Positions 46,449 through 60,444 of a DNA stretch of 64,000 nucleotides are shown piece after piece. The notes under the pieces are model-generated. The model saw only the letters and a program-made list of their open reading frames with translations. It did no database searches and was not told the DNA's origin. Position 1 is the first letter of the stretch. Each line of letters opens with the position of its first letter. A program made the translations under genes and the position numbers. This stretch comes from Phytoactinopolyspora limicola (GTDB taxonomy: Bacteria > Actinomycetota > Actinomycetes > Jiangellales > Jiangellaceae): positions 62,001 through 126,000 of the forward strand of contig NZ_JAAOEN010000007.1 in the NCBI RefSeq assembly GCF_011320225.1. Direction: 5' to 3'.

Positions 46449-47927
46449 TTACCCGTTCATCCGCTGGTCCGTGTCGAACAGTTTTCGCTCGGTCAGCGAG
46501 AGCGCATGGGCCACAACGTAGGCGCGTTGTCCGATACGCCAGAGCCCTTCGCCGACGCCGAGTTCGCCGATGATGTCGCGTTGGGTTGGGGTCAACCCGA
46601 GCAAGGCAGCGGACTGTCCAAGTTGGTCGCTCTCTTGCCGGTAGGCGATCCGGGTTGAGCAGTCGGCCAATAGTCCGGCGGCCAACTCACGCGATTCGGA
46701 GCCTGCGTCACCGATGGCATCAAGATCGCTGAGCCGGTGGATCACGGCCATATTCGCGATCCCCCACGCGCGGGACAGCTTCCACTGGGCTTGCATGCGG
46801 CGCAACAATGCGGTCACGGACATCAGGCGCCACGCTTCGTCGTAAATGATCCACCGAAGGCCGCTCTGAGCATCCTGCAGAGCCCCTTCCAGCCACGACG
46901 ATGCGCAGGTCATGATGATCGGGAGCGCTTCGTCGTTCTCGTTGAAAGCGGACAGATCAAGGCTCACCATCGGTAGGGTCGGGTCGAATTGGGTCGTCGA
47001 CTCACCGTCGAACATGCCCCCGAGGTCGCCGTGAACCATGCGCGCCAGCGCGTGCCCGACACGGCGGCCGTCGTCGCGCAGGACAGCGACATCGTCCGCT
47101 GACAGGTCTGTCGCCAACGGCGACGGCGCCAGCAAATGCTGAACCACCGTCGGCAGTGTGGGCGTGCCTCCCGCACCCTCGGCCACGGTCAGGGCCGTGG
47201 TTAGCGCAGTTTGCTCGGTCGGAGCCAACGCGTCGCCGAGCACTGTCTCTGCGATAGCGCGAAGCAATTGCCTGCGCCTGGCCTGTACGAGAGTGGACCA
47301 CTGCGCATCACTCAAACCACTTGGGCGAGTTCCTTCATCCAGAGGATTGAGCCTGGTGGTTAGCCCCGGGCCAAGTCGAATCACCTTGCCGCCTGCGGCC
47401 TCGACGACGACGCTCCATTCGCCCTTGATGTCGCCTGGCACGTACGTCTTGCGTCCGAAGGCCAGCGATCTCCAAGCGATTGACTTGGCTAGACTGCTTT
47501 TGCCGTTGCCGATGACGCCGGCCAGCAGCACGTTTGGGTTCGTGACGATCCTCGCCTTGTAAAGCTCCCAAGGGTCGAAACAGAAGCTCGCGCCGGCGAG
47601 CAAGTCCCGGCCGATGTACATTCCGCTAGCCCCGAGTCCGTCGTCGGCGAGAAAGGGATACAGCACACGCAGGCTGGCGCTCGTGGAGTAGTGCGCCTGT
47701 AAACGCAGCGGCAACCAGGACCGTCCAGCCGCTGGGCCGGGGGCACCGGCTCGTGGGTGGGTCACGTCCCGCGGAGTGGCGCGCTCAGCCATTTGTTCTT
47801 CGCGTCGCCGCACGCGTTCGTCATCCCTCTTCTGGCGAATCAGTCTGCGTGCTTCCTTGCGCGCTGCCCGCCGAGCGGCGGGGCTGGCATCGGCTGGGAT
47901 GAAGAGTTGACCGGAACGCACGTTCAT
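46449..47927 (-). CDS. VirB4-like ATPase, C-terminal type
   Basis: 492 residues from the ATG at 47927 (MNVRSGQLF), overlapping the SCO6880-like stop (ATGA). After a charged, helical start comes the ATPase with Walker A GVIGNGKSS (~137-145), the FGRKTYVPGDIKGEW strand, and Walker B WIIYDEAWRLM. Together with the SCO6880-like protein it represents a split VirB4, the energy source of the T4SS. Confidence 0.88.
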   Translation of the reverse strand: MNVRSGQLFIPADASPAARRAARKEARRLIRQKRDDERVRRREEQMAERATPRDVTHPRAGAPGPAAGRSWLPLRLQAHYSTSASLRVLYPFLADDGLGASGMYIGRDLLAGASFCFDPWELYKARIVTNPNVLLAGVIGNGKSSLAKSIAWRSLAFGRKTYVPGDIKGEWSVVVEAAGGKVIRLGPGLTTRLNPLDEGTRPSGLSDAQWSTLVQARRRQLLRAIAETVLGDALAPTEQTALTTALTVAEGAGGTPTLPTVVQHLLAPSPLATDLSADDVAVLRDDGRRVGHALARMVHGDLGGMFDGESTTQFDPTLPMVSLDLSAFNENDEALPIIMTCASSWLEGALQDAQSGLRWIIYDEAWRLMSVTALLRRMQAQWKLSRAWGIANMAVIHRLSDLDAIGDAGSESRELAAGLLADCSTRIAYRQESDQLGQSAALLGLTPTQRDIIGELGVGEGLWRIGQRAYVVAHALSLTERKLFDTDQRMNG

Positions 47928-49399
47928 AGCAGCATGCGCCCGAATGGCAGCCCCGCATAAAAGGCGGTGTCTTGCTGTCCATACAGCACGACAGTGTCCA
48001 GGCCGCAATGGTGGCAGGCGGTCTCCGTCTCCTCCAGTGCGAGTTCGAGTTCCTCCTTCGAACCGGCGGACACTGTCACCAGTCCGGTGAACGCCAGGTC
48101 AGCGTGCCCAGAGACCAACTCACGTTCACGTTTATCAACGTCTTCCTGTTCCCGCCTCTGAGCCGCCGTGGTTCGGATGTCACGCTTGTCGCGGCGCCGC
48201 TGTTCGGATTCTTGTTCCGCCTGCTCGATCTTGAGTTGTCGCGTGGCCTCACGGACCGTGCGCGGTCGGTAGACCACGCTGACGCTTCGCTGAACCGACG
48301 TGGCCAGGAGGAGCGGCACCAGAAACGTGGCGTCGACCTCTTCACGCGTCCATTCCTTGATCCACAGAACAGCGTGCCAACCGTCGTCAATGCGCAGATG
48401 GTCCCATTCGGAAGAGACAGCCACAGGTCCGGCTACCGCAACGTCGCGGCCTAGGCCCGACCTCTCCCACGCAGGAGTGTGGTGTGGTCTGAAGGCGGTG
48501 TTGATCAGGCGAGCGAGGTCCGACTCGTCCAGCCAGGCGTCCACGTTGATTTCGGCCGAACGCAGATTCGCAGTCAACGAGGTCAGCTCCCGCGCAAGAA
48601 CGTCGGCCGCGCCGGCCACTCCTCCACCGGCGGACCGGACAGCGCGTGCCGAGTCCTTCAACGACACGGTGACGGAGAGCAGTGCTTCGTGTCTGGACGA
48701 CGTCGGCTCGGCATTGCTGACAAGCTGTCCGTATGACTCCGCGGCGAGGCGGGAGTCCTGGCGGCCATCCCGTTCCCAATGGGTGCGTACCGCGTTCCCA
48801 CCTTCAGGAAGCGACCGGACGAGCACCTGGAGCCTGCTCATACGCCCAGTGCGGCACGCGCCGCTGAGGGCCTGTCCCCACCCGGCTACACGACGGTTCT
48901 GGTCGTCCACGCTGAGCAGCAGGAAGACGTCGTGGCGGACGCGAATTACGCCGGTCAGCGTGCGCCGATGTGGGTCAAGGATGAATGCGGCCCCAGAAGG
49001 GTCGTGCCGATGGAGCCGTAGGCTCGCTGACTCACCCGGCAGGGAAAGTGTCCCCACGGATCGGGGCCGGTCCGGCCGGATCAGCCACAGCGCCTGGCCG
49101 CGGATCCGCCGTAACAGGGCATGCACCACAACTGGTGTCCATGACACGAGGGTTCGGCCTCGTGGAGCGACGAAGGCAAGAACGAGCGCACTGATCCATA
49201 CCGGCGCCGTGATCACTATCCCGGTAGCGCCAGCGCTCATCGCCGCCGGGCCGAGGACGGCCGCCGCGACACCCACAGCTGCCATCTGAGCCGCAGAGAG
49301 CCCCCACATGACACCTCGCTCAGAGCGTCGGCCCAACCGTGCGGTGACCGCAGCCGGTGGGCGCGTACTTCCGATACCGTCCATTAACACGTTCTCCAT
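47924..49399 (-). CDS. SCO6880-family T4SS protein
   Basis: 491 residues of the SCO6880 family, which combines a PrgI-like membrane start (two helices near residues 35-75) with a VirB4 N-terminal-like part. The C-terminal part has a long charged helix (QLKIEQAEQESEQRRRDKRD). The ATG directly follows the stop of the VirB6-like gene. In actinobacterial ICEs this gene always precedes the VirB4-like ATPase, as it does here. Confidence 0.88.
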   Translation of the reverse strand: MENVLMDGIGSTRPPAAVTARLGRRSERGVMWGLSAAQMAAVGVAAAVLGPAAMSAGATGIVITAPVWISALVLAFVAPRGRTLVSWTPVVVHALLRRIRGQALWLIRPDRPRSVGTLSLPGESASLRLHRHDPSGAAFILDPHRRTLTGVIRVRHDVFLLLSVDDQNRRVAGWGQALSGACRTGRMSRLQVLVRSLPEGGNAVRTHWERDGRQDSRLAAESYGQLVSNAEPTSSRHEALLSVTVSLKDSARAVRSAGGGVAGAADVLARELTSLTANLRSAEINVDAWLDESDLARLINTAFRPHHTPAWERSGLGRDVAVAGPVAVSSEWDHLRIDDGWHAVLWIKEWTREEVDATFLVPLLLATSVQRSVSVVYRPRTVREATRQLKIEQAEQESEQRRRDKRDIRTTAAQRREQEDVDKRERELVSGHADLAFTGLVTVSAGSKEELELALEETETACHHCGLDTVVLYGQQDTAFYAGLPFGRMLL

Positions 49400-50491
49400 T
49401 CACCCAGATGTGTGTTGGCGTTGTCGGTGCAGGAGATGGGCCGGAGCAGTTATCACTCGCCCCGCCCCGGCCACCGCCGCGCGAGACTGAAAGATCACCG
49501 AACGCGCGCTGTGTGAACCGGCATGGACCGTCATTGCGCCGCGCCCCATAGTGCCGTCCCATTCCCGGCCGCTCGGTGTCACGAAATCGAGGAACTTGTA
49601 CGTCAACCAGGGCGCAATCGCAGCGACGAAAAGCAGCATCAAGCCCATGGACAACTCGCCAATAGACCGCAACACCGACCCAGCGGAGCCAGACAATCCT
49701 TCACGGATGGCACTGGCGGCGATCGCAAACGTCATCACAATAGTGATCTTGCTAATCGCGAGCGCGAACATGATGCTTGCCCATTTCTGCGCCCAGCCAG
49801 ACGTCCATCTGCTCGTCAGACCTGCAAAGGCCAGCGGAGCGAACACGGCCGCGACTATGATCAAGGCCTTGCGTGCCATCAGCGCGAACCACACGGTGAT
49901 CGACGCCAAAATGTAAAAGAAGGCGAAGACAATGATGAGTATCGCCGGGAGCACAGCACCGTGGCCGGTGGCCGAGGCAACCAACATAGCCGGCGTCAGC
50001 GCCTCGATCGCCTCGCCTACCTCGACGCCGACCCGCCATCGCATGATCAAACCAGCAGCCCAGTCGGTCAACGTCAACACCGACTGCGTCACAGACAAGG
50101 CAATCGCCGTGGCCGAGAAGCTACCAAGCATGCCCACGACCGCACGGACCAGTTCGCTCGACTGGCGCCGCCACGCCGCTGACGCTAGCTGAACGATATA
50201 GAGCGCAACGACGATCGGCAGCGCGATGAGCATGGCAACCGTGACATTGCCCCTCACCCAATCGGCGGTCAGGTCAACTGCCGTCGTCTCCATGAGCAGG
50301 GACCACATCGCGACAATCAGCGTCTCCGCCGCCTCAGCCATAGCTCGGGCCAGATTGCCGATCGTCTTGTCATGGAGCCACCCGCCCGGATCTATTCCAC
50401 CGCTGACGAGCTTGCACACGAACTGGGAGAACGGATCGAACAGGCCACCACAACCGCCACCGGTCGGCGAGGGCTCGGGATAGCTCCGCAT
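49400..50491 (-). CDS. VirB6/TrbL-like channel protein
   Basis: 363 residues from the ATG at 50491, with GGAG about 8 bases upstream inside the preceding stop region. The N-terminus has CGGLFDPFSQFVCKLVSGG. At least six membrane helices follow (VAMLIALPIVVALYIVQL, AVLPAILIIVFAFFYILASITVWFALM, ALIIVAAVFAPLAFAGL and others). The size and layout match TrbL/VirB6 proteins that form the inner channel. The C-terminal tail is basic and disordered. Confidence 0.85.
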   Translation of the reverse strand: MRSYPEPSPTGGGCGGLFDPFSQFVCKLVSGGIDPGGWLHDKTIGNLARAMAEAAETLIVAMWSLLMETTAVDLTADWVRGNVTVAMLIALPIVVALYIVQLASAAWRRQSSELVRAVVGMLGSFSATAIALSVTQSVLTLTDWAAGLIMRWRVGVEVGEAIEALTPAMLVASATGHGAVLPAILIIVFAFFYILASITVWFALMARKALIIVAAVFAPLAFAGLTSRWTSGWAQKWASIMFALAISKITIVMTFAIAASAIREGLSGSAGSVLRSIGELSMGLMLLFVAAIAPWLTYKFLDFVTPSGREWDGTMGRGAMTVHAGSHSARSVIFQSRAAVAGAGRVITAPAHLLHRQRQHTSG

Positions 50492-50495
50492 CAAC

Positions 50496-51952: not shown

Positions 51953-53071
51953 GTGGCGCCCATCATTCAGCGAATCAGGCACTTCCTATCGGACGAGGCG
52001 CGCCGCGAGCGCAAGGCAGCCCGGGCTGAGTGGAGTGAGCGTTGGAAGCAGAGCCAAGCTGAGGAACAAGCCATCCTCGCTGGGAGAAGCCCATTGCACT
52101 TCGCGACCACGCGGTCGCCGTTGGTTCAGGGACAGGTCCAGATGGGGCCCGCCTACGCACGCATCCGCGGCAGGTACAGCTTCAATTCGCGACTCACTTT
52201 CGCTACCCCCGCAGGGGAATCACGCACAACACCAGCCCGGGTGGATCATCCCGCAACCGTCTGCCTGCCAGCAGACACCGAAGTGTGGATGCACGAGGAG
52301 ATCTTAGACCAATCCGGAAAGAAGCTTGGCTATGTTTCCTCAGTAGACCACGTCCCAACCGGGCAGCAGATCGATTCGGTCCCGGTGAGTGGGCCCTGTG
52401 GCGAGAACCTCGTGGCACGAATCTCGACGCTGGAGCACATTAAGATCAACTTCACGCGTGACCTTACCATCACCTCGACAGTCGAGACGCATCGTCCAGT
52501 GGTTCTCGTCACCGCAAATGATCGTGACCGGCCGCTCGACCTCGGAGCAGAACAAGCAGCCATTGAGCGAGCTATCGGCTGGAACTGTGTCAGGGCAGTC
52601 CCTGCCGCGACACCCGGAAGGCTTGTGGAAGCCATTGATCAACACAGCCCAGCAGTCCTTCACTTCGCTGGCCACAGCAACACAGAAAGCCTCTACCTAC
52701 GAGACGAACTGGACCACGAAATCGAAGTCACCAGTGAGAACTTTCGAGATTTCGTGGAGGGTCGCGGCATCAGGCTTCTGATTCTTAACTCATGCTACTC
52801 GAATGCCACAGCCGAAATGTGCTTACCGTACGTGTCAACGGTGATCGGGTCGTCCAGCGAAGTGGACGATGAAGACGCCTGTCGATTCGCTGGTGAGTTC
52901 TATGCGAGCCTGAGCCGGGGCCTCACCGCTGAGCAGGCGATGAAGAACGCTACCGATATCGTCAAGATGCACGATGGCGAGGACTACTTCGTGTTCCTGG
53001 GCGAAGGCGAACTTCGCCTGAACATCCCAAGCGTGGCCACACCACGGCAGGACACGTCGGTCGACGCATAA
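51953..53071 (+). CDS. CHAT-domain protease-like protein
   Basis: 372 residues from a GTG at 51953. The C-terminal half has the CHAT/caspase-like dyad: His ~241 in AVLHFAGHSNTESLYL and Cys ~281 in IRLLILNSCYSNA, with the expected spacing. A Walker-like motif is absent. The N-terminal ~180 residues have charged helices and a beta-rich stretch of unknown type. CHAT proteases act in prokaryotic cell-death and antiphage systems, usually set off by a sensor protein. No sensor gene is adjacent here, so it may act alone or have lost its partner. Confidence 0.75.
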   Translation: MAPIIQRIRHFLSDEARRERKAARAEWSERWKQSQAEEQAILAGRSPLHFATTRSPLVQGQVQMGPAYARIRGRYSFNSRLTFATPAGESRTTPARVDHPATVCLPADTEVWMHEEILDQSGKKLGYVSSVDHVPTGQQIDSVPVSGPCGENLVARISTLEHIKINFTRDLTITSTVETHRPVVLVTANDRDRPLDLGAEQAAIERAIGWNCVRAVPAATPGRLVEAIDQHSPAVLHFAGHSNTESLYLRDELDHEIEVTSENFRDFVEGRGIRLLILNSCYSNATAEMCLPYVSTVIGSSSEVDDEDACRFAGEFYASLSRGLTAEQAMKNATDIVKMHDGEDYFVFLGEGELRLNIPSVATPRQDTSVDA

Positions 53072-53389: not shown

Positions 53390-53900
53390 ATCCAGGGGTT
53401 GGGGATCTTGGTTCCTCGGTACCGGTATCGCGTGATCGGTACTGAGGAGAGGTTGAAACAGTTCGATCCCATGCGTCGACGGTCTGCGCCACCGGCCGTT
53501 GGAGCCGGTGAGGCATCGCCGGATGTCCTTCCTGCTCCAGCGGTGCAAATTCTTTCCCTAGCGGATCCCCCTCCGCCACACGAAGTTTTCGAGGGACTGC
53601 ATTGTGTGCTTACAGACTGCGTGCTTGAAGTAGTTGGACCAGCCGCGCATGATCTGGTTGAGCCTGATCAACACGGCCCCGGGTGGCTGCGACAACCTGT
53701 TTGTCAGGGCATGGACCTTTCCTTCAACGACCGGATGGGCCGGTCGCCGATGAAGGTGTAGGCGTACCACTTGTTCGTGCCTCGCTTGCGTTTCCACTGG
53801 ATGCGGAACCCTAGGAAGTCGAAGGGCCTGCTGCACAAACGGATGACACTTTCGGTTTGGGCTGCCTTGGAGTCGGCTGGTTTTATGATCAACTCGTATT
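53390..53900 (-). mobile_element. Group II intron maturase remnant
   Basis: C-terminal pieces of a group II intron maturase in several minus-strand frames. They are FDFLGFRIQWKRKRGTNKW and YTFIGDRPIRSLKE (about 53825-53710), then LTNRLSQPPGAVLIRLNQ and IMRGWSNYFKHAVCKH (about 53700-53600), WRRGIR and RWSRKDIRRCL near 53565-53520, and finally GRWRRPSTHGIELF and IPVPRNQDPQP towards 53390. Frameshifts separate them, and the reverse transcriptase core is missing. It belongs to a different subtype from the one at 4056-4506. Confidence 0.75.
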
Positions 53901-54277
53901 GGATCTGAGATCAACCGTCCTAGAGTATCCTGTGGACGGCAGCGGTGACAGGTTCTCTCGACCCAGACAACGATCACGATTCGCGTTTCTTCGCCTGTAG
54001 TCCAGGAGCGGCGGTCGAGGACCTTTTTCTGTAGCCTTACCATAAGGCCTGGAACCAAATCGCCTTCTGCCGCGGCGCGGGGCCGCCAACGTCCCACTCG
54101 GCCAACGCTTTCCGGACTACCCTTCAGGGCGTGATCACGATGCCATCTTGTCACCGCGCAGACCGTATCCAAGATCTCACCCCTCGCCACTACAGCCGAG
54201 TTTCGGCCACCGACCCAGCTGAGCCTGGATGTTCTGCTTGCGAGCCGCCAACTTCAGCTCCTTCTCAGATCAGTCAA

Positions 54278-55239: not shown

Positions 55240-55860
55240 TTAACCCGCGAGCATTGGCTCGCCTGGCACGTGTGGCGCCACACCCGACGCGACAACAAGT
55301 ACGTCACCGTGATCATCGATCTGACCGGCATCCGCGATGGCGCCGGCCAGCCAGGCTGCTGGACATGGTCGAGGGCCGCTCCAAGCAGGTGCTCAAGACC
55401 TGGCTCGCCGAACGCGACGGGTCCAGCAGGACATCCATAACCACCGCAGCCGCAAGAGCGACCCGCTCCACGGTGCACCACGGACGCTGCACACCGGAGT
55501 CGATCTGCTCACCGACAAGCAGAACGACCGACTGAGCGCCCTGTTCGCTGACGACCAGCATGTCGAGGTCAAGGCCACCTCGGGGATATACCAACGCATG
55601 CTCGCCGCCTACCGCGAGCAGGACCGACGCTGTGGTCGTGAGCTGATAGTCAAGCTGATCGACTCGGTCAGCCACGCCGTGCCGAACGCGCTGAGCGAAG
55701 TCATCGCGCTCGGCCGGACACTGAACAAGAGGTCCGCAGACGTCCTGGCCCACTTCGACTGGCCCGGCACATCCAACGGCCCGACCGAGGCCATCAGCGG
55801 CCGACTCGAACACCTCTACGGCTCCGCCCTCGGATTCCGCAACCTCACCAACTACATCGC
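55240..55860 (+). pseudogene. ISL3-family transposase, 5' part (interrupted)
   Basis: Pieces of an ISL3 transposase: NKYVTVIIDLTGIRDG (about 55296-55340), LLDMVEGRSKQVLKTWLAER, then in another frame RRVQQDIHNHRSRKSDPL, HTGVDLLTDKQNDRLSALF, and GPTEAISGRLEHLYGSALGFRNLTNYIA up to 55860. The N-terminus and about 60 internal residues are missing, so it was already defective. A RIT element is inserted after NYIA; the coding sequence resumes at 59009. Confidence 0.8.
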
Positions 55861-55886
55861 TTATGTCGACTTCCGCATAAGCGATG
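55855..55886. repeat. Inverted core-like site at RIT left end
   Basis: CATCGCTTATG at 55855-55865 and CATAAGCGATG at 55876-55886 are exact inverted copies around a 10-bp spacer, the layout of a tyrosine-recombinase crossover site. The outer six bases come from the target transposase on one side and the terminal repeat on the other. Confidence 0.65.
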
Positions 55887-55969
55887 GTATGTCGCCTTCA
55901 TCGTTATGTTGACCAGCTCCGTGTGCGCCCCTGCTCGGGCCGGGATCAGCGGTTGATCCGGCAACATAA
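55881..55969 (+). repeat. RIT terminal inverted repeat, left
   Basis: 89 bp, inverted relative to 58919-59008. The two differ by one substitution (near 55929) and one missing base near the inner end. The outer end is GCGATGGTATGTCGCC. Confidence 0.9.
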
Positions 55970-55980
55970 TCGTCCGGGTG

Positions 55981-56976
55981 TTACCTGCTCTTGAGGAAGG
56001 CGATGAGAGCGTCTGACGCCTGGTAGCGGGCGGGTGGCCGCTCGTCGAGGGTGGGGACGCGTCCGAGGGTCCGTCGCTTGAGTTCCAGGTCGGCGTGGAA
56101 GTAGATCTGCGTGGTCTGGATGTTCGCGTGTCCGAGCCAGAGCGCGATGCTCGCGGTGTCGATTCCGGCGTGCAGCAGGCTCATCGCGCAGGTGTGCCGC
56201 AGCGTGTGCGGGGTGACATTCTTCCCGGCCAGCGAAGGACACCGCTGTGCCGCGGTCGTGGTGTGCCGGGTGACGAGCTTGCCGACCGCGGCCCTGGTCA
56301 GCGGTGTCCCACTGCTGGTCGGGAACACTGGCCCGTCCGGCGCCGGAGAGAGCTCGCCGAGCCAGGCGGCCAGGAGCTTGACGGTGTTCTTCTGCAGCGG
56401 GATCACGCGCTGTTTACGGCCCTTCCCGACGCATTCGAGTTGGCTATGCGGGCCGAGCTGGATGCTGTCGATGCGCAGGCTGGCCAGTTCGCTGACGCGG
56501 AGTCCGGTCTGGATGCCCAGGTGCAGCAGGAGCCGGTCGCGACGGCCGAGCCAGGTGCTGGTGTCGGGAGCGGCGATGAGCGCTTCGGCCTCGGGGGCGG
56601 TGAGGAACGAGACGAGCGTGGTCTTCGTGCGTTTCGCGGGGATCGCGAGGACCTGGCTGATCGTGGAGATCGCGTCCGGTGCCCGGTAGCTGGCGTAGCT
56701 GAAGAACGACCGCAGCGCGGCGCGGCGGGCGTTGCGGGTGGCGGCGGAGTTCCCGCGCTCGGTTTCCAGGTGTTGGAGGAACCCGCCGATCAGGTCCGCG
56801 TCCAGGTCGGCCAGCGCCAACGCGGACGGAGCGATGCCGGTGGCCTGCTGGGCGTAGGTCAGCAGGAGTCGGAACGTGTCGGCGTAGGCGGCTTTCGTGT
56901 GGACGCTGGCGTTCAGGTGCCGGTCGAGCTTGTCGGTGAAGAACCGTTGCAGCAGCGGCGCGAGGTCACTCATCAT
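55981..56976 (-). CDS. RIT tyrosine recombinase, third gene
   Basis: 331 residues. Integrase domain with the catalytic Arg in TGLRVSELASL, HxxR in HTLRHTCAMSLLHAG, and LGHANIQTTQIYFHAD with the last His and the Tyr nucleophile. The N-terminal SAM-like domain (LDRHLNASVHTKAAYADTF) binds core DNA. Overlaps the middle gene by 11 bases; the ATG at 56973 is an equal start. All five key residues are present. Confidence 0.88.
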   Translation of the reverse strand: MMSDLAPLLQRFFTDKLDRHLNASVHTKAAYADTFRLLLTYAQQATGIAPSALALADLDADLIGGFLQHLETERGNSAATRNARRAALRSFFSYASYRAPDAISTISQVLAIPAKRTKTTLVSFLTAPEAEALIAAPDTSTWLGRRDRLLLHLGIQTGLRVSELASLRIDSIQLGPHSQLECVGKGRKQRVIPLQKNTVKLLAAWLGELSPAPDGPVFPTSSGTPLTRAAVGKLVTRHTTTAAQRCPSLAGKNVTPHTLRHTCAMSLLHAGIDTASIALWLGHANIQTTQIYFHADLELKRRTLGRVPTLDERPPARYQASDALIAFLKSR

Positions 56977-57901
56977 CGCCCCCGCTCGCGTGGATGCGTT
57001 CGGCGAGAGCGGCTGCGAGTTCTGGAGTGTTCGACAGATACCAGTAGGTCGCTTCCGGGCCGACGTGCCCGAGCCAGGCTGACAGCACCGGCATCATCGC
57101 GTCGACGTCGCCGCCGGCGCGGACGTGACCGATCAGGGTGTTCGTCGCGAACGAGTGCCGGAAGTCGTGCAACCTGGCGGCCGGTTCGGTCGGGCCGCCG
57201 GCGAGGCCGGCTGCCTCTCGTATTTCGCGGAAGGTGTTCCCCGCGGTGGAGCGGGCGATCCGGGTGCCGCGGCGGGCGACGAACACCGCCGTCGTCTTCG
57301 GGACCGGGAACGTCCGATCGCGCATCCGCTGATATCTCTGGATCGCGGCCATCGTCGTCGCGTGGAGTGGGACGAGCCGGGACTTGCCGAACTTGGTATC
57401 GGTGACCCGTGCCCATCCGCTGCCGTCACCGGCCTCGTCGTCGGTGGCGATGTCGTCGTCGTTCAGGTTCCGGGCCTCGCTGATCCGCATCCCCGTCGCC
57501 GTCAGCAGCCCGAGGAGTGTCTGCCAGGACGCTGCACGGACTCGTGGAGTCAGTGTCCCTGCCGCGACCAGCAGAGCATCGATCTGCCCACTGGTGAAGA
57601 TCAGCGGGCGAGGACGATGAGCGCCGTAGGGTCGCCCGTCGAGAACGGGAACCTCTGTCGCGGCGTCGAACCACGCGACGTGCTCAGCGAACTGGCGGAC
57701 GTAGTTCAACCGTTCCAGCACCGTGCCGCGGGAGAACTGTGATGCCCACGCGGTCGCCAGATCACGGCGGATCGTGGGCTCGCCGGCCTCTTCCATCCAG
57801 CAGACGAATCCGTCCAGTGCCTTGCCCGTCGCGGTCAGCTTGAACCCCAGCGCCCGCCTGGTCGCCAGGTAACCGTCCAGGAGGTCACGCAGCCCGCTCA
57901 T
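56966..57901 (-). CDS. RIT tyrosine recombinase, middle gene
   Basis: 311 residues from the ATG at 57901, overlapping the first gene's stop as ATGA. Catalytic motifs TGMRISEARNL, LHDFRHSFATN and WLGHVGPEATYWYLSNTPEL carry Arg, HxxR and His/Tyr. The N-terminal part is SAM-like. It is the shortest of the three and resembles the second-position protein of RIT sets. Confidence 0.88.
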   Translation of the reverse strand: MSGLRDLLDGYLATRRALGFKLTATGKALDGFVCWMEEAGEPTIRRDLATAWASQFSRGTVLERLNYVRQFAEHVAWFDAATEVPVLDGRPYGAHRPRPLIFTSGQIDALLVAAGTLTPRVRAASWQTLLGLLTATGMRISEARNLNDDDIATDDEAGDGSGWARVTDTKFGKSRLVPLHATTMAAIQRYQRMRDRTFPVPKTTAVFVARRGTRIARSTAGNTFREIREAAGLAGGPTEPAARLHDFRHSFATNTLIGHVRAGGDVDAMMPVLSAWLGHVGPEATYWYLSNTPELAAALAERIHASGGDDE

Positions 57902-58836
57902 CGTGCCCACCTGCCCGACGCGGCAGCAGGCCACTCGGGGACGAGCTGGGTGAGCCGGTTCTTGTCGACCTTGGTGTAGATCGCGGTCGTGCGCGGATGC
58001 GCGTGTCGCAGCAGCCCCTGAACCTCCTGCAACGTCGCTCCGGAGGCGAGCATCCCGGTCGCGAACGTGTGCCGCAGCCGATGCGGGCCGAACTTCTCCA
58101 CCCCGGCTTTGATGCAGATCTGCCGGACGGTCCCGCAGACGCCGTTGGAGCTCAGCGGCTGGACCGGATCGATCACCGTCCAGAACACCTCATCGCCGGC
58201 GACCCTGCCGCCGCGGCCGTGGAGCACATAGTCCTCCAGCGCCTGGCCGACCTCGTCGGGCAGCGGGAGTTCATCGACCCGGTCGCCTTTGCCCCGGATG
58301 CGCAGGCTTCCGGTGCGCCAGCCGATGTCATCAAGCCGCAAGCCTGCGATCTCGCATGCGCGCAGCCCGAGCCCGGTGAGCAGCAGCAGGATCGCCCGGT
58401 CGCGGAGCCCTTTCGCCGAACGCAGATCAAGCGTGTCGAACAGCGCCTCGATCGTGCCCGCCGGCACCGGGTCCGGGATCGACGAGAGCCGCCACGCCGC
58501 CGCATGCGGCACCACCCCCGACAAGTCCTGCCCCGTCCGCCCGGAGCGATGGCAGTACTGCAGGAACGAGCGCAGCATCACCAGCTGCTTGCCCAGCGTC
58601 GAAGCCTTCAACCCGCGCGCGGCTTCCAGGTTCACCCACTCGATCACCGTCGCCGCCGCCAGCTTCCGCAGCGACTGATCGACCGGCGCGGGCAGCCACT
58701 CCACGAACCCCGCCACCCGGGCGGTGTATGCGGCTGCGGTGCGCTCCTGCGCCGACCGCTCCCGCAGTAGCCACCCCTCGAACTCGTCCAGCACGCCTCG
58801 CGCGTCGGCGCGGCGCTGATCACGATGAATCGCCAT
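57898..58836 (-). CDS. RIT tyrosine recombinase, first gene
   Basis: 312 residues. Catalytic motifs LLTGLGLRACEIAGLRLDD (Arg), GPHRLRHTFATGML (HxxR) and LLRHAHPRTTAIYTKVDK (His and Tyr). N-terminal core-binding domain with TAAAYTARVAGFVEWL. It starts about 80 bp inside the right terminal repeat, where the promoter must lie. Confidence 0.88.
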   Translation of the reverse strand: MAIHRDQRRADARGVLDEFEGWLLRERSAQERTAAAYTARVAGFVEWLPAPVDQSLRKLAAATVIEWVNLEAARGLKASTLGKQLVMLRSFLQYCHRSGRTGQDLSGVVPHAAAWRLSSIPDPVPAGTIEALFDTLDLRSAKGLRDRAILLLLTGLGLRACEIAGLRLDDIGWRTGSLRIRGKGDRVDELPLPDEVGQALEDYVLHGRGGRVAGDEVFWTVIDPVQPLSSNGVCGTVRQICIKAGVEKFGPHRLRHTFATGMLASGATLQEVQGLLRHAHPRTTAIYTKVDKNRLTQLVPEWPAAASGRWAR

Positions 58837-58918
58837 CTCGGTCCTCCTCGACCTGATGCTGGGCGATCCCAGCGACCGCCCAGTCAGATCAAGCGAACCC
58901 CGACGCGACCGCGCACGG

Positions 58919-59008
58919 TTATGTTGACCGGATCAACCGCTGATCCCGGCCCGAGCAGGAGCGCACACGGAGCTGGTCAACATAACGATGAAGGCGACAT
59001 ACCATCGC
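58919..59008 (-). repeat. RIT terminal inverted repeat, right
   Basis: 90 bp, partner of the left repeat. Its outer end (ACCATCGC) shares ATCGC with the target transposase sequence. Confidence 0.9.
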
Positions 59009-59077
59009 CAGAGCCCTCCTGGAAACCGGCGGCGCCAGCCCTCCCTATCAGCCCGCGCCACACCCGCATCTGTGAAG
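59009..59077 (+). pseudogene. ISL3-family transposase, 3' end
   Basis: Continues the transposase after the RIT insertion: the target codons encode RALLETGGASPP then end in TGA at 59075-59077. The join with 55860 is in frame (NYIA-RALLE). Confidence 0.8.
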
Positions 59078-59164
59078 AGCCGAATAGTGGCCGGAATCAC
59101 GCCCCGGGCACCGTGGCAGGCCCCGAGCCGTGGTCGGTATCGAGATATCCAGGTTGGCCTGCGC

Positions 59165-59553: not shown

Positions 59554-59927
59554 GCATGGCCAAGCCGGAGATCGAGTTCACTCCCACCTCGTCGGTGCCG
59601 TTCCGGCCGTGTGATCCACCGATAGACGGGCTCTCCGAGGCGGTCCTGGCGCGCAACGGCACCGACGGCACGATCACCCGCATACTGCGGTTCGAGCCGG
59701 GAACCGACACATCCCCAATCGGAACACTCACTCACGACTTCTGGGAGGAGGTGTACATCTTTGAGGGCTCATTCGTAGACCTTCGGCTCGGCCGCACCTT
59801 CCGGACCGGTGACTGGGCCACCCGCCCGCCTGGGATGGAGCACGGTCCATGGTTCTCACCAGACGGAGCCAAGATGTTCGAGGTCAGGTACACCCAGCCG
59901 GCAGCAGACGGGGGAGATAGGCGATGA
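59550..59927 (+). CDS. Cupin-domain protein
   Basis: 125 residues from the ATG at 59550 (ATGA overlap); the ATG at 59556 has better spacing from GGGAGG. Single cupin: PIGTLTHDFWEEVYIFEGSFVDLRLGRTFRTGDWATRPPGMEHGPWFSPDG, with His and Glu residues for a metal. It may be an isomerase or a sensor of an aromatic pathway. It is intact, but the partner genes on both sides are broken. Confidence 0.75.
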   Translation: MSMAKPEIEFTPTSSVPFRPCDPPIDGLSEAVLARNGTDGTITRILRFEPGTDTSPIGTLTHDFWEEVYIFEGSFVDLRLGRTFRTGDWATRPPGMEHGPWFSPDGAKMFEVRYTQPAADGGDRR

Positions 59928-60444
59928 TGACCGACACCTTCATCGAGCCAGACAGCGCCATCATGCGTCGGACCATGGGGCGCTTCCTGACCGGTGTCGC
60001 AGTGGTCACCGCCGCCCACGACGAAGCACTCGTGGGGATGACGATCAACTCGCTCACCTCGATCAGTCTCGAACCGCCGATCCTCATGATCGCGCTGAAC
60101 CAAAACACCCGAACCGGCGATGCTGTGCTGCACAGCGGGCAGTTCGCCATCTCCATCCTGGGCGCCAAACAAGAAGCGGTCGCGCGTCAGTTCGCGGTCC
60201 GAGGCGAACGCGGTTCGAGGCGGGCGAATTCGACACCACCACCTGCGGCCTGCCGACCATCCGCGGAGCACTCTCCCAAGTCGAATGCCGCGTGCTCAAG
60301 CATGACAACATCGGGGATCACCAGGTCTTCTTCGGTCGAGTCATGGGCTGCCGGGACCGCGACGGCGAAGGGCTCGCGTTCAACGCCGGCGCGTTCGGAG
60401 CCTTCCGCGATTTCCGCCACGACACGATGCCATGGACATTCTGA
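59924..60444 (+). pseudogene. Flavin reductase (HpaC-like), frameshifted
   Basis: The first half (MRRTMGRFLTGVAVVTAAHDEALVGMTINSLTSISLEPPILMIAL) is the FMN-binding fold of HpaC-type reductases. The second half (FEAGEFDTTTCGLPTIRGALSQVECRVLKHDNIGDHQVFFGRV) is in another frame, reached by a shift near 60205-60215. It would have supplied reduced flavin to the HpaB-like oxygenase. Confidence 0.75.

Follow-up and report, generated by a model that had tools for sequence, protein, structure and literature searches.

A recombinase-in-trio element of an actinobacterial lineage with a probable single-base target in ISL3 transposase genes

We analyzed a 64-kb stretch of the Phytoactinopolyspora limicola genome (contig NZ_JAAOEN010000007.1, positions 62,001–126,000; all 64,000 nucleotides are called the window below), in which three overlapping tyrosine recombinase genes lie between inverted repeats inside a transposase gene of the ISL3 family of insertion sequences (IS). 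They probably make up a member of an actinobacterial lineage of recombinase-in-trio (RIT) elements, site-specific at one ISL3 nucleotide and entering it by way of a circle with a palindromic junction. As comparison of the related elements shows, insertion occurs at a single ISL3 position and in both orientations, with a palindrome at one end only, no duplication of the target, and the native six bases of the target at the far end. The observation from which the analysis started, a recombinase trio between repeats in ISL3, is partly confirmed at the level of the sequence: It is real, with corrections.

Ends of the Element and Its ISL3 Target

The inserted unit is 3,148 bp long and can be placed at 55855–59002 or, equivalently, at 55861–59008. 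Read on the ISL3 strand, the layout is ..CACCAACTA / CATCGC / TTATGTCGACTTCCGCATAA / GCGATG..element..GACATAC / CATCGC / CAGAGCCC.. and comprises a 6-bp crossover sequence on the palindrome side (designated a; CATCGC, 55855–55860, plus strand), a 20-bp palindromic core found at one end only (TTATGTCGACTTCCGCATAA, 55861–55880, no strand assigned), a left terminal inverted repeat on the ritC side (ITR; 55881–55972, plus strand), a right ITR on the ritA side (58916–59008, minus strand), and a second 6-bp sequence (designated c; CATCGC, 59003–59008, plus strand). By the rule seen in the relatives, a would be an imported copy and c the native 6-mer of the target, but the two agree here and are therefore indistinguishable. 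The ITRs were delimited by repeat search and BLAST: A pair of 81 nt at 99% identity (55881–55961 and 58928–59008) extends to 92/93 bp with two substitutions and one 1-bp indel. Chance or an unrelated repeat is ruled out as their origin, because 13 relatives at 83–93% amino acid identity all carry the same ends and because the pattern TTATG-N10-CATAA occurs once in the window, at the end of the RIT. The original prediction had placed the element at 55861–59077. Its start holds as the first base of the 20-bp palindrome outside the repeat, the palindrome itself having gone unmentioned, whereas its right end lies about 70 bp too far, in ISL3 DNA: End comparison moved the junction, proposed within 59000–59080, to 59002/59008. 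Also missing from that account were the palindrome's restriction to one end, the imported six bases, and the degraded state of the ISL3 copy.

The 5′ flank (T1) is an ISL3-family transposase remnant (55252–55854, plus strand), recognized by BLAST against four other copies (L047, L118, L048, and L094) and by a DDE_Tnp_ISL3 match (E 3.6e-17) of the open reading frame (ORF) at 55337–55912; the named plasmid matches to the flank are annotated as ISL3 or ISPfr2 family. The 3′ flank (T2; 59009–59081, plus strand), identified by BLAST and comparison with other copies, continues the reading frame as ..IARALLETGG.. through the C-terminal codons and ends at 59081 in GAAGAGCC, which is taken as the ISL3 terminal repeat. 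Relative to intact copies the 5′ part of the ISL3 is gone and BLAST indicates that about 150 bp are missing near 55415–55420; the ISL3 copy was thus already broken. The RIT insertion itself is clean. The claim that the transposase can be rejoined in frame thus stands for the C-terminal part and fails for the remainder. Aligned with intact ISL3 copies, the predicted empty site is matched (closest to the window copy is L047, with 89% identity over 159 bp and CATCGC at the site), which supports the prediction that the RIT is complete, that it lies in a transposase gene of ISL3, and that its target and empty site are deducible. No other ISL3 of the same type was found in the host's own genome at E ≤ 1e-20.

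To place the element among its relatives, we use a scan of genome contigs, with one genome per species and 84,980 species, that yielded 14 loci. Thirteen of them are the relatives mentioned above; the other (L025), at 24% identity, was too remote and was excluded. Among 198 genomes of one relative's family there are eight carriers, five of them already known, and one newly found carrier (G416) has six RIT copies, all on a single 3.60-Mb contig. In total 30 close elements were examined, with both ends read in 22. The same ISL3 base was hit in 26 of the 30, of which 20 were read at both ends and six at one (L012, L014, L022, L023, L090, and L127), within the target sequence ..AACTA^CATCGC CAG.. 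of ISL3 transposase genes. For the other four (L017, L018, L091, and L092), the site is inside or next to a C5-methylase gene, which a Pfam match identified on a single flank. L017 and L018 represent one locus shared by two species; L091 and L092, for which one end was found, were placed by their likeness to L017. None of the 22 elements with both ends read is devoid of recombinase genes, so terminal repeats without recombinases, which would have pointed to an unrelated repeat, are absent from these 22; no search for bare repeats over all collections was made.

Closer to the host, RitA was found at E ≤ 1e-60 in one of 22 genomes of its family, the host itself (the search at the level of the order covered the same 22 genomes), and in two of 393 genomes of its class, the host and one 43% match. 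The lineage is rare, since the pattern of core plus ITR occurs in only one of these 393 genomes. There was no plasmid match to RitA at E ≤ 1e-50, and no palindromic core in viral contigs.

Of the 22 elements with both ends read, 21 have the 20-bp palindrome (TTATG-N10-CATAA) at one end and lack it at the other; it is imperfect (14 of 20 positions) in the window and in L015. It follows the same ISL3 base in all 19 ISL3-site elements that have one; among the 21, its neighbor is the ritA end in 10 cases and the ritC end in 11 (derivatives with one gene were scored by gene-start and gene-end sides, and L021 was placed from its gene position). Because the palindrome adjoins either end of the element but always the same ISL3 base, insertions occur in both orientations with the palindrome fixed relative to the target. 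G416 also has a second RIT-type core (TTATGCCGAGGTCGGCATAA, at position 2012 of L113) close to one of its ISL3-site elements; a repeat-like sequence adjoins this core, which perhaps belongs to another RIT family.

Six-Base Exchange at Empty and Filled Sites

The exchange is most readily seen in G416, where empty and filled ISL3 copies coexist. Over 1372/1372 bp of T1 and 61/61 bp of T2, the ISL3 that holds the full RIT L086 shows no difference from two empty copies in that genome; for L123 and L124, T1 agrees with empty copies at 99.3–99.6%, and T2 at 100% and 98.4%. The empty copies have CATAGC at the site; L086, L123, and L124 keep CATAGC at the far end and have CACCGC, CGTCGC, and CATCGC, respectively, beside the palindrome. 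There is no target duplication: The native six bases are kept at one end, and six foreign bases stand beside the palindrome. The same pattern was found for L019, L130, and L131 against intact copies at 96–97.5% identity, those for L019 and L131 coming from other genomes. In ten ISL3-site elements the two 6-mers, a and c, differ. For eight of these, c is the 6-mer found in the closest intact ISL3 seen, at T1 identities of at least 95% in six and of 87.5% at most in two (L084 and L085); an eleventh element with differing 6-mers, L017, has no intact counterpart in this data set and stands outside the ten.

One-gene derivatives follow the same site. A mini-RIT of about 1.3 kb is present in five G416 copies (L123, L124, L125, L130, and L131), four of which differ from L124 by 2–4 bp; it shares ITRs, core, and ISL3 target site with the full RITs and contains a single ORF that joins about 38 residues of RitA to RitC. 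A sixth copy (L126) bears two further insertions, by eye of IS256- and IS30-type transposases. The mini-RIT occurs in one of 39 genomes of the genus, G416 itself, the only other match (G393) being full RITs. We also observed that the same 454-aa IS256-type transposase ORF, its family again assigned by eye, lies inside both the full RIT L089 and the mini-RIT L126.

Could a single ancient entry of a RIT into one ISL3, spread afterward by ISL3 transposition, have produced this distribution? ISL3 is multicopy in many carrier genomes, and of the six ISL3 copies in which the two IS ends lie at the distance expected, three have flanking 8-bp direct repeats (L019, L086, and L123) and three do not (L013, L087, and L124), so that an IS bearing a RIT could move. 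Such a composite history is nevertheless highly improbable. The T1 sequences of 19 ISL3-site elements fall into 13 groups at 95% identity (the grouping also included L017, as a 14th group), from which it follows that insertion was repeated rather than one event copied; the insertions are in both orientations; near-identical ISL3 hosts (L086, L123, and L124) have differing imported 6-mers; full and mini elements both occupy the site; and a like end structure is found in targets other than ISL3.

Distant RITs and a Model of Insertion

Those other targets come from plasmids. RitA matches at E ≤ 1e-15 were found in 428 plasmid records, all below 60% identity, and 20 distant regions were picked by hand for diversity, 16 from 40 listed among the 428 and four from a separate listing of 30. 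Over the 207,674 bp of these regions TTATG-N10-CATAA occurs ten times, each time beside a recombinase cluster and palindromic at no fewer than 16 of 20 positions; both inverted repeats were recognized in eight cases (L028–L031, L134, L135, L146, and L147) and were not seen in two (L137 and L139). With L140, where another 20-bp palindrome takes the same place and both repeats are present, comparison shows a like palindrome beside the recombinase genes in 11 of the 20 distant regions. Targets were read from Pfam matches of the flanks, record annotation, and by eye. IS66 TnpB is hit three times, with insertion at identical codons (L135, L146, and L147), and IS21 IstA in two different places (L028/L029 and L134). 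Two further targets are transposases of the rve type (L030) and of the DDE_Tnp_1 type, the latter reading as IS1634-type (L031). In L140 (4322–7931) one RIT appears to be inserted in the ritB of another, at its HxxR motif, and L139 lies in a gene annotated as an error-prone polymerase. In L031, L146, and L147 the 6-mers of the two ends differ, and by eye the one at the far end restores conserved codons. Two Rhodococcus plasmids (L028 and L029) share the istA site and the outer 6-mers but not the 6-mer at the inner side of the palindrome. Earlier RIT targets given in the available parts of PMC2864759 and PMC3414803 are radC, IS66 tnpA, and a Tn6049-type transposase.

From these structures we infer a circle and its sequence, its excision, roles for the individual recombinases, and a mode of target recognition. 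The trio would join the ends of the element into a circle with the junction ITR–6 bp–20-bp palindrome–6 bp–ITR. This junction would be symmetric, or nearly so, with the palindrome between two equivalent crossover sites, both made up of a CATAA-type arm, 6 bp, and a TTATG-type arm. Exchanging strands at the 5′ edge of the 6 bp in one site or the other would open the circle into the target, and the choice of site would set the orientation of the insertion. The predicted product is T1–[imported 6 bp]–palindrome–element–[native 6 bp]–T2 in either orientation, with no duplication and no loss, the circle's six bases going to one end and those of the target to the other, as in the strand-biased circularizing integrative elements (SEs). 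Given this geometry, precise excision would leave an in-frame change of at most 6 bp in the IS.

Several observations weigh against this scheme. The 22nd element read at both ends (L024) lacks the palindrome and is bordered on either side by ISL3 3′ DNA. In L087 and L126 it is a, not c, that carries the native 6-mer of the T1 type; in both, T2 is mismatched to the element's own T1 type, giving flanks of two ISL3 types, and we interpret them as chimeric copies. Donor 6-mers, traced by eye, are inconsistent: L085 to L086 fits c as the source, and L084/L087 fits a. In the window copy the palindrome is imperfect and the 6-mers a, b, and c all agree, so the rule is invisible from this copy alone. 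The distant set includes one region (L144) with inverted repeats and no recognizable palindrome at either end, three (L136, L141, and L145) with only imperfect or different palindromes, and five (L138, L142, L143, L148, and L149) that the count of 11 leaves unassigned. Finally, the head-to-head circle junction (ITR–core–ITR) was found in none of 14 genomes and in no viral contigs, as is expected of assemblies.

How the strands would be exchanged can be pictured in two ways. One is an SE-like, strand-biased copy-out/copy-in process, in which one strand would be exchanged per step, replication would complete the circle, and the donor would be retained. In its favor are the native 6 bp at one end with the imported 6 bp at the other, as the available text of PMC10214605 describes for SEs, and the numerous copies in G416 (six RITs and six minis); the lack of an excision-type foreign 6-mer in the few intact G416 ISL3 copies, with two types compared, fits retention weakly; we regard this process as a tentative possibility. 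Classical excision and integration of duplex DNA, with a 6-bp overlap and random repair of the heteroduplex as in Int-type systems, appears unlikely by comparison with the end 6-mers: It would leave the native 6-mer beside the palindrome about half of the time, and this was seen in two of ten elements, both of them the copies read as chimeric, in a set of ten that are not all independent. The three proteins with intact-looking motifs speak for it, as does the fact that tyrosine recombinases of known elements use overlaps of 6–8 bp.

Extending insertion from a palindromic-junction circle to the RIT class as a whole is a step on which we are evenly divided. Under it, RITs would be site-specific hunters of other mobile genes, each lineage recognizing a conserved coding motif of its own (NYIA in ISL3, D(F/M)RKG in IS66 TnpB, two motifs in IstA, and the catalytic motif of RitB), orientation-free through a palindromic junction with two sites, with an in-frame 6-bp swap left behind on departure, and with one-gene RitA–RitC derivatives that obey the same rule.

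The Recombinase Trio and Comparison with Known Systems

All three recombinase genes are on the minus strand and match Phage_integrase, and together with the 92/93-bp repeats they bear out the predicted trio. The gene ritA (57898–58836) encodes 312 aa (E 4.5e-31; 39–42% identity to four first-gene RIT proteins), ritB (56966–57934) encodes 322 aa when read from GTG 57934 (E 1e-19; 38–42% to four second-gene proteins), and ritC (55981–56976) encodes 331 aa (E 9.5e-32; 45–54% to four third-gene proteins). Alignment suggests ATG 57901 as the start of ritB; the overlap of ritA and ritB is then 4 bp instead of 37 bp from the GTG, and that of ritB and ritC is 8–11 bp depending on the ATG chosen. Each protein best matches its positional counterpart, with identities to the pHG1 and EbN1 proteins of 39% (A), 38–39% (B), and 45–46% (C). 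The residues usually called catalytic in tyrosine recombinases (R, K, HxxR, H, and Y) align with those of RIT proteins in all three, in agreement with the visible Arg, His, and Tyr of the original prediction. Overlaps of 4–8 bp between trio genes are reported in the available part of PMC3414803.

The RitA of the window lacks the N-terminal extension of EbN1 RitA, aligning from EbN1 residue 120 with a single Phage_int_SAM_1 match, and so departs from the RitA subgroup with two sequential core-binding domains described in the available text of PMC8138268; other short RitA proteins are those of M. riyadhense (330 aa) and pHG1 (333 aa as annotated). On these alignments the short RitA makes the element less of a typical RIT and leaves its membership in the trio family intact. 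It has a trio with short overlaps, the A-B-C family order, R...H-Y motifs, inverted repeats, and a palindrome, if an imperfect one. The tfp and srap genes of SEs are lacking, since three recombinase genes occupy the space between the repeats, and the third protein is a RitC-family tyrosine recombinase, not one of the TnpC type of Tn554. We thus classify the element, from its sequence, as a RIT of a lineage with short RitA, mostly targeted to ISL3. No second RIT copy was found in the host's own genome; diverged DNA matches of 68–74% to the recombinase genes at G000:C23:598532-599073 (L010 and L011) are possibly a second RIT-like region.

Around the insertion, an ORF near the ISL3 remnant (53558–54190, minus strand) encodes a group II intron maturase domain (GIIM, E 7.9e-12). 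A CHAT-domain protein (51953–53071, plus strand) and an ORF that matches EccE (E 4.7e-6) and, below the cut-off, TrbL (47924–50494, minus strand) hint at a mobile or secretion-related region. On the other side, the Pfam match of a flavin reductase-like gene (59924–60444, plus strand) covers positions 1–90 of 153, and ORFs overlap there in two frames, suggesting a frameshift near 60200.

In its overlapping A-B-C trio, its length (RITs measure about 3–3.5 kb), and its inverted repeats, the window element resembles the RITs of Cupriavidus metallidurans CH34, C. necator pHG1, and Aromatoleum aromaticum EbN1, and insertion into transposase or other genes was noted earlier (in the available parts of PMC3414803 and PMC2864759); it differs from them in the missing N-terminal extension of RitA and in a lineage whose insertions mostly share one ISL3 site. 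Sequence comparison here defines the ends, the target base, and the 6-bp exchange, going beyond the account in PMC3414803, whose available text reports no convincing recombinase sites in RITs other than a 28–29 bp inverted repeat and the palindrome. In the open literature searched we found no RIT target base or attachment site, and an earlier description in Ricker 2013, Van Houdt 2009, or PMC5737581 is possible. Target specificity, empty site, and movement of RITs are marked as not tested in table 1 of the 2023 paper PMC10214605, according to whose available text transposition has not been reproduced in the laboratory for any RIT. From natural pairs of empty and filled sites in one genome come a rule exact to the base, a prediction for the circle junction, and a small target on which insertion can be tested directly in the laboratory; the one-gene derivative raises the question of how many of the three recombinases are needed, and the landing of most close relatives on the same ISL3 base reveals the target choice and entry of a poorly understood kind of element.

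The closest parallels are with other elements that carry tyrosine recombinases, and the comparisons that follow refer to PMC10214605 as far as its text was available. SEs are likewise target-specific, with six imported bases at one end and native ones at the other, and their insertion into an IS gene (insJ) is reported; they differ in carrying intA-tfp-intB-srap and in being found in Gammaproteobacteria, and the available accounts mention neither a palindromic junction with two sites nor insertion in both orientations. GInts share three integrase-type genes, and integration of their circular form was shown in vivo (PMC10214605); they are genomic islands with four conserved genes, all required, not a bare trio. 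We know of no 20-bp palindrome in Tn554. That element otherwise has more than one tyrosine recombinase, target specificity, terminal inverted repeats, and a 6-bp footprint, and differs in its tnpA-tnpB-tnpC genes, TnpC having been compared with Srap (PMC10214605). The 6-bp exchange proposed here for RITs matches the descriptions of both SEs and Tn554 (PMC10214605), and this shared exchange ties RITs to these two kinds of elements.

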